DNA of 64,000 bases from Paenibacillus daejeonensis DSM 15491 (lineage in GTDB: Bacteria > Bacillota > Bacilli > Paenibacillales > Paenibacillaceae), in NCBI RefSeq assembly GCF_000378385.1, contig NZ_KB899679.1:1-64000 (forward strand), read 5' to 3'. The number at the start of each line of letters is the position of its first letter. Positions within the stretch are counted from its first letter, which is position 1. A program made the position numbers and the translations under genes. The notes beneath the pieces are model-generated. The model did not search any database. It was not told where the DNA came from and worked only from the letters and a program-made list of their open reading frames with translations. Below, one piece after another: positions 299-49,608 of this stretch.

Positions 299-484
299 CT
301 AAGTGCGAAAATACAATTAGCATCGTCTACAAAGCAGAGCGATCCATCCTTAAGTGCAAAAATACAATTAACTCATCCTAAATTGGGAATTACTAGGAGA
401 AAACGGTGCTGCTAAGTGTATTTTTGCAACTAGGAGAAGAGAATATAGCCGATTAGTTTGAAATAGTGGTATTTTTGCAGTTAG
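299..484. repeat. Phased four-motif element, copy 1
   Basis: Four copies of a 22-bp motif (core roughly TAAGNGCAAAANTACANYTA) begin at 299 and 350 on the plus strand and at 412 and 463 in inverted orientation. The offsets are 51, 62 and 51 bp. The same layout recurs at 1031-1216 and 49424-49608. The inward-facing pairs could form nested hairpins. No open frame or transposase is inside. This may be a non-autonomous mobile or protein-binding element; its function is unknown. Confidence 0.85.
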
Positions 485-1030: not shown

Positions 1031-1216
1031 ACAACGACAATAGTACCTCTAATGCCTCCTGTAAACTGGAGAAGTAGGCCCTTAAGGACAAAAATACAGC
1101 TAGTTCGTTGGAATTTGGAAGGTTCTAGGATGATGTGGTGGATTTAAGTGTACATTTGTCGGTATCGACTCCATATTGAGCCAGATACGAGGATTTAGGT
1201 GTACTTTTGTCGGTAT
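1031..1216. repeat. Phased four-motif element, copy 2
   Basis: 22-bp motif copies start at 1031 (degenerate, 14 of 22 against the next copy), 1082, 1144 and 1195. The first two are forward and the last two inverted. The offsets of 51, 62 and 51 bp are identical to copy 1. The degenerate first unit was found by looking at the position the spacing predicts, which supports the spacing being real. Confidence 0.8.
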
Positions 1217-12660: not shown

Positions 12661-12844
12661 AAAACGCCAAAATCGTTAGGATTTTGAACGAATCGTATGA
12701 AAAAACTCTCTTTCGACCGAAAAATCCCGGGATAAGACCCCGATTTTCCTAAAAATTCGTTAAAATCGTCTTTTAAGCGATCTTTACAATGAGGGTGCAA
12801 AGAAGGTATGATTCTTCTCAGAGCTTCACTATTGTATCCAATTT
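12661..12844. other. Leader/promoter region ahead of the riboswitch
   Basis: AT-rich DNA with repeated words AAAATCGTTA, GAACGAATCG and a CGATTTT/AAAATCG inverted repeat near 12741-12767. A possible -10 TACAAT is at 12785-12790, but no good -35 element is present. Nothing else is seen. Confidence 0.4.
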
Positions 12845-13045
12845 CCAGTTTCGCTTAATCTTCGACTATGAAGAACGGGGGAACCAAAATCACCAGTCCG
12901 CTCTCCCACTTGCGGCTGTCTGATTTTCTTCCTTGGGGTGAATTCGTGAAGAGCCGAATCGACGAACCCGGCTCCTTCTGATAGGGCATCTCTCATGTCC
13001 GAACCCGTCAGCTAACCTCGTCAGCGTCCAAGAGAGATCACTCGT
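12845..13045 (+). ncRNA. Cyclic-di-AMP riboswitch (ydaO/yuaA class)
   Basis: Class-specific conserved blocks appear in the right order: CGCTTAATC, AAGAACGGGGGAACCA, TTGGGGTGAATTC, a TAGGGCATCTCT block, and CCGAACCCGTCAGCTAACCTCG. This class binds c-di-AMP and usually turns expression off when the ligand is bound. Here it precedes yabE, a cell-wall hydrolase type gene that such riboswitches often control. The 5' and 3' ends are approximate. A clear intrinsic terminator between it and the gene was not found; a GCGTGC/GCACGC hairpin at 13151-13164 lacks a T-run. Confidence 0.93.
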
Positions 13046-49423: not shown

Positions 49424-49608
49424 CTAAGGACAAAACTACAACTAATAATCGCATTAGGATAGATTATCCGTCTCGTAAGAGCAAAAGTGCAGTTAATATG
49501 CCGAGTATATCCATATATTTCTATAAACCAGCGTATTAGTTGTACTTTTGACGTTAGTTTCCCAATATCACTAGAATTTCAAGCTATTAATTGTACTTTT
49601 GTCTTTAA
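49424..49608. repeat. Phased four-motif element, copy 3
   Basis: 22-bp motif copies start at 49424 and 49475 (forward) and at 49536 and 49587 (inverted). The offsets are 51, 61 and 51 bp, matching the two copies near the start of the window. Motifs 2 and 3 can pair over about 20 bp when G-T pairs are allowed, and motifs 1 and 4 pair similarly, giving nested hairpins. Confidence 0.85.

Follow-up and report, generated by a model that had tools for sequence, protein, structure and literature searches.

Genomes of the Paenibacillaceae carry a short dispersed DNA element built of four 22-bp dyad sites (F1, F2, R1 and R2), which stand in a forward-forward-reverse-reverse layout at steps of about 51, 61 and 51 bp. 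The layout and its dyads are spread throughout the family, and both the sites and their spacing change slowly between species. Furthermore, the element is oriented with replication in one other genome (G307) and in those copies of Paenibacillus daejeonensis that match the consensus of that genome. From these observations we infer a protein, a complex and a fork-coupled movement: on balance, the element is probably a non-autonomous, REPIN-like dispersed element that a putative oligomeric protein binds as double-stranded DNA and that spreads at replication forks.

Anatomy of the element in P. daejeonensis

The window, by which we mean the whole 64-kb stretch of P. daejeonensis DNA analyzed, contains three such elements (Table 1). 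An initial annotation had described them as twelve copies of one motif, and upon re-examination of the window the coordinates, spacing and orientation of all twelve were as it had given them. A 20-base pattern with up to three mismatches matches the window 13 times, against 1.83 matches expected, and 12 of the 13 are these sites; none of 100 shuffles of the window reached 13 matches. The second element is the weakest of the three, and the asymmetric spacers of the third follow the leading strand, the local G-C skew being +0.10.

Table 1. Positions of the three elements and their sites in the window.
Feature	Position	Strand	Remarks
Element 1, TGCA-type	299..484	+	186 bp; after 5S rRNA gene
Element 1 site F1	299..320	+	
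Element 1 site F2	350..371	+	step +51
Element 1 site R1	412..433	-	step +62
Element 1 site R2	463..484	-	step +51
Element 2, diverged copy	1031..1216	uncertain	186 bp
Element 2 site F1	1031..1052	+	weak, 3 mismatches vs pattern
Element 2 site F2	1082..1103	+	step +51
Element 2 site R1	1144..1165	-	step +62
Element 2 site R2	1195..1216	-	step +51
Element 3, GACA-type, fits genome consensus	49424..49608	+	185 bp
Element 3 site F1	49424..49445	+	
Element 3 site F2	49475..49496	+	step +51
Element 3 site R1	49536..49557	-	step +61
Element 3 site R2	49587..49608	-	step +51

Three other features of the window were recorded. Positions 1-1216 are near-identical to positions 1-1202 of locus L045 on another contig of the genome (G000:C6), both being contig starts after a 5S rRNA gene and both holding two elements; the end of an rRNA operon has probably been duplicated here. 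At 673-796 a further inverted repeat, also imperfect (arms 673-696 and 773-796), whose right-arm 17-mer has 14 genome matches with up to two mismatches versus 2 in the control, is perhaps a second low-copy repeat. A c-di-AMP riboswitch (ydaO/yuaA leader) lies at 12842-13041 (85.4 bits).

About 36 copies of the layout, with a central step of 61 or 62 bp, are present in the 7.46-Mb P. daejeonensis genome (G000), where a model of the element, model R1, gives 73 matches over both strands, amounting to about 36 places. With at most one mismatch, the 20-base pattern matches this genome 110 times, versus 3 times for a reversed control, and the retrieved matches group into elements of one common layout; 3 of 33 complete copies (L038, L046 and the copy at 11324 in L043) have one step of 50 or 52 instead. 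Comparison across genomes resolves each site as a dyad, TAANTGYA-AAAN-TRCANTTA, which is directional owing to its A-rich center. In P. daejeonensis its left half has GACA- or GTCA-like letters in most copies and TGCA in a smaller set, and at four loci (L035, L050, L053 and L058) the two types are neighbors within about 50-160 bp, in full or with one of the two halved. Across 24 GACA-type copies the mean information content per column falls from 1.38-1.49 bits in the sites to 0.39-0.71 in the spacers and to 0.06-0.08 in flanks of 30 bp. Similarity in these copies stops sharply at the outer ends of F1 and R2, which form terminal inverted repeats, a feature of classical MITEs.

The near-duplicates L045:289 and L045:1017 were left out of alignment A1, the information profile and the within-copy identity test, and L045:289 was kept in the TGCA set of the orientation test. 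Partial copies in L035, L037, L056, L058, L062, L067 and L070 were left out of the pair and covariation counts, and for six diverged copies of unsure direction an orientation was assumed when they were included in alignment A1 and model R1.

The elements are mainly intergenic: open reading frames of at least 150 amino acids overlap them by more than 60 bp in 3 of 33 copies in P. daejeonensis, 2 of 9 in G003 and 3 of 39 in G307. Flanking genes are convergent at 16 and divergent at 2 of 38 places in G307, with corresponding counts of 4 and 4 of 28 in P. daejeonensis and 3 and 2 of 9 in G003. The proposal that all four sites face nearly the same side of the helix fares well near 10.2 bp per turn, where 51/61/51 bp make about 5/6/5 turns; at 10.5 bp per turn, simple arithmetic puts the steps off by about -1.5 and -2 bp and the last site off the first by about -5 bp, so that the one-face arrangement is approximate only.

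Family-wide spread and conservation of sites and spacing

Of the 295 genomes sampled from the family, 142 match the element (E<=1e-4), and these represent 17 of its 19 genera; the family is taken as Paenibacillaceae on the basis of named matches, and most of the matches listed span 174-185 bases. Within the genus of P. daejeonensis, model R1 matches three of seven genomes; a fourth, G002, has weak matches to model R2 only (17, best E 5.4e-7), and neither model matched the element in G001, G004 or G006. Eleven of 299 genomes match in a class-wide sample, ten of them Paenibacillaceae. The eleventh, G355, belongs to another family of the class and has strong matches (locus L135; 8 scored, best E 2.9e-20), possibly acquired by transfer. 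Viral contigs gave no match to the F-F pattern, and among 154 plasmid records matched by a 1.2-kb query, the 8 matches listed all fall in query positions 1-128, the 5S rRNA part. All 11 elements among the matches listed for G016:C1 lie within 2.11-3.58 Mb of its 4.23-Mb chromosome and surround an origin placed near 3.2 Mb by skew samples.

The layout does not depend on the spacing assumed in the search. When named genomes were scanned for the exact F-F pattern at any period from 36 to 66 (at least 80 stretches), 66 of 76 Paenibacillaceae pairs among the matches listed, one of them bearing the name Bacillus sp. FJAT-27264, had a period of 51 and 74 one of 50-52, the rest being 47 and 49; Gottfriedia, Myroides and others yielded eight matches in seven stretches, at periods of 41, 42, 60 or 66. 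In named genomes, a free search placed R-R downstream of F-F in 52 of 72 pairs, and across the genomes compared the unit is one of four sites in F-F-R-R order, not of two palindromes. The site itself is GGACA-like in its left half in genus g6 and nearly palindromic in G307 and others; thus, the letters change by lineage and the layout stays. Isolated copies with random spacing, which the initial annotation had named as the observation that would count against the element, are not what the genomes hold, since the 51/61/51 spacing recurs family-wide.

Orthologous copies reveal what is conserved within the element. G029 and G094 have elements at orthologous places, and at two of these G128 and G183 also carry it, the copy of G094 being partial at one. 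Over eight G029-G094 pairs, sites carry 27/695 substitutions, spacers 79/777 and flanks 328/2241 (site versus spacer, p=2.5e-6), with the limit that seven of the eight pairs came to notice through high scores of both copies, a selection that favors conserved sites. Gap columns number 4/781 in the spacers versus 387/2628 in the flanks, and the 41/736 gapped site columns fall nearly all in the loosely aligned outer sites F1 and R2. Seven deeper comparisons, five of them located by searches with flanking DNA, give substitutions of 73/614 in sites and 142/678 in spacers (p=1.3e-5) and gaps of 5/683 in spacers versus 197/1526 in flanks; in two of the seven (L099-G029 and L080-G094) sites are no better conserved than spacers, and L099 with G029 is counted in both sets. 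Judged by these alignments, spacer length is under tighter constraint than spacer sequence.

Two breaks of synteny between related species touch the element: at L078/L096 at its outer edge, and at L104/L114 inside it, between R1 and R2. The former was considered as a clean insertion and rejected, as about 3.8 kb faces 0.8 kb of unlike sequence.

Orientation relative to replication and possible movement

Since the spacers are asymmetric, they allow each copy to be oriented independently of the genes around it. This was done in G307 for 39 copies (40 retrieved of at least 58, minus L188, whose element the site finder missed) by an unsupervised method under three codings, including a purine/pyrimidine coding that ignores transitions, and all three agree. 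When 12 skew samples are used to bound the replichores at 1.55 and 5.55 Mb, orientation accords with the replichore in 33 of the 39 copies (p=1.7e-5) and with local G-C skew likewise in 33 (p=1.1e-5), and with the local gene majority in 26 (p=0.054); where skew and gene majority are at odds, all seven loci follow skew. Between 2.9 and 5.2 Mb, the strand calls of the model are the same in 23 of 24 copies among the matches listed. P. daejeonensis points the same way, with 18 of 24 GACA-type copies oriented with the leading strand (p=0.038): under leave-one-out scoring all 18 consensus-matching copies, which had been hand-picked as sharing the consensus spacer, follow it, and the other six, which do not fit the consensus in either direction, run the opposite way. 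Because gene direction and skew largely coincide in this genome, G307 is the informative case. Eight TGCA-type copies of P. daejeonensis (p=0.38) and nine copies of G003 (p=1) gave no significant orientation signal, and for G288 and G162 the skew samples did not place origin and terminus.

The initial annotation had listed a transposition signal among its possibilities, and dispersal does gain indirect support from this orientation together with the spacers, which are common within a genome or genus and different between them, as expected from the spread of a local master copy. Movement itself was not seen, because no empty site was found: at two loci all four g6 species carry the element, one of them in part. 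Nor was there a clear target-site duplication over 396 combinations of length and offset (best z 3.0 for 39 copies of G307 and 3.3 for 18 of P. daejeonensis). A subset of G307 copies (L190, L198, L201, L202, L206, L213, L216, L217 and L219) shares 30-80 bp or more of flank, as parts of larger repeats would, and since this reaches beyond 185 bp, the moving unit may be larger in G307.

An insertion sequence bears independent witness to the sites. Five stretches of G288, chosen for partial or split element matches, contain six copies of an insertion sequence that is IS3-like by its HTH_Tnp_1 and rve_3 domains. Five of the six interrupt F2 or R1, the inner sites, at the center, and the four central bases stand at either end of the insert, exactly in four copies and in three of four bases in one; insertion at this point marks the sites as real dyads. 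The sixth (L303, 364-1774) has one junction at the center of R1 and the other without repeated bases, as after rearrangement.

Possible nature of the element and relation to known systems

Each element would be a double-stranded DNA array of four dyads bound by one putative trans-acting oligomeric protein, which is most likely the spreading enzyme or a partner of it, and the 51-61-51 spacing would bring the bound units together in a single wrapped or looped complex. A gene-less, lineage-specific master copy would then spread to intergenic DNA through a fork-coupled process that leaves most copies in one orientation relative to replication, and settled copies would persist through speciation with their sites and spacing held by selection. 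Protein binding, as the initial annotation had proposed among other roles, is indirectly supported by the dyad sites, by the spacing held in orthologues and by alignments without pairing-specific covariation. The latter speak against the nested RNA hairpin that it had also proposed, in which a transcript would pair F1 with R2 and F2 with R1. Single-sequence folds do give nested hairpins, of roughly -41 to -75 kcal/mol when the better strand is taken, and the F2/R1 differences of most GACA-type copies would be G-U pairs on one strand; this asymmetry was dismissed as evidence for RNA, being one inherited change in related copies that also fits leading-strand base skew. However, RNAalifold finds no consensus pair in 40 copies and eight weak pairs in 38 family-wide copies, and a crossed pairing, which cannot form, does no worse (81.9% standard pairs, covariation 0.190) than the nested one (81.7%, 0.183), both lying above all 500 column shuffles; the apparent covariation arises because the sites share one type. 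Within-copy identity shows no significant excess between F1 and R2 or between F2 and R1 (z 0.42 and -2.60 for GACA-type, 1.38 and 0.90 for TGCA-type copies), Rfam at its gathering threshold matches none of the elements in the window and five further loci, and a structured RNA is thus very improbable. The element also belongs to no named family that we could find, as had been remarked at the outset: besides Rfam, searches of the open-access literature at the level of titles and the starts of abstracts brought up no description of it.

Mobilization as a REP or REPIN by a RAYT or an IS200-type Y1 transposase would fit the intergenic position and inverted order of the dyads, the lineage-specific populations, the replication-linked orientation and the IS3-like targeting, features which earlier reports describe for REPs, REPINs or IS200/IS605 (PMC3116915, PMC5371812, PMC1525189). 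Yet the Y1/RAYT domain PF01797 occurs in 48 of 142 carriers and, among the 153 genomes in which the element was not matched, in 46 (p=0.53), was not found in the other 94 carriers, and is absent from G000, G003, G005, G007 and G016; it does not track the element, and such an enzyme does not explain it. A REPIN moreover consists of two palindromes and the present element of four. Repeated and mainly intergenic as it is, we do not assign it to the REP/RAYT group, and this origin appears unlikely. A role in the host chromosome, with permanent sites for a family-specific chromosome-organizing or fork-related protein and a selected orientation bias, is less doubtful, although still rather improbable. 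FtsK/SpoIIIE-orienting and fork-arrest sequences are precedents for such a bias, and sites and spacing held in place between species, the seven discordant G307 loci and the clustering of the listed G016 elements round the origin would all fit. Against it, the element is patchy even in its own genus (none found in three of seven genomes), the 58 copies listed for G307 lie all round the chromosome, and copy polarity stems from the lineage-specific spacer, the less constrained part.

Returning to the fork-spread, protein-bound element that we favor, it may tentatively be regarded as a new class: a replication-polar array of four dyads, carried by about one in two of the Paenibacillaceae genomes sampled, with spacing selected for wrapping or looping by a putative dedicated protein, combining mobile spread with a lasting host role. 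The element is widespread and strict in its DNA architecture, and selection on spacer length while spacer sequence drifts points cleanly to a nucleoprotein complex with several sites. If the partner protein is found, it would offer a testable case of short repeats that spread at forks and are then kept; how short repeats spread and persist is a question that the REPIN work leaves (PMC3116915).

Among known systems, bcr1 of Bacillus cereus is likewise a short dispersed repeat in Bacillota, a likeness by description only. The element resembles REPINs and REP-RAYT systems in being dispersed, intergenic and non-autonomous, with inverted palindromic sites at a preferred spacing, and REPINs in having populations that differ between genomes (PMC3116915). 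In contrast to REPINs, it has four dyads at a tight 51-61-51 spacing, no association with Y1/RAYT in 295 genomes and no pairing-specific covariation. In published fork-coupled elements orientation is linked to replication, and with IS200/IS605 and TnsE-guided Tn7 the element shares an orientation that tracks replication direction (PMC5371812); unlike both it contains no internal gene, and unlike IS200/IS605 it is not associated with Y1 enzymes. Finally, as with the IS-targeted REPs of IS1397 and ISPsy8 (PMC1525189), an IS3-family element targets a repeated palindrome, whereas the target here is the center of one of four phased dyads.
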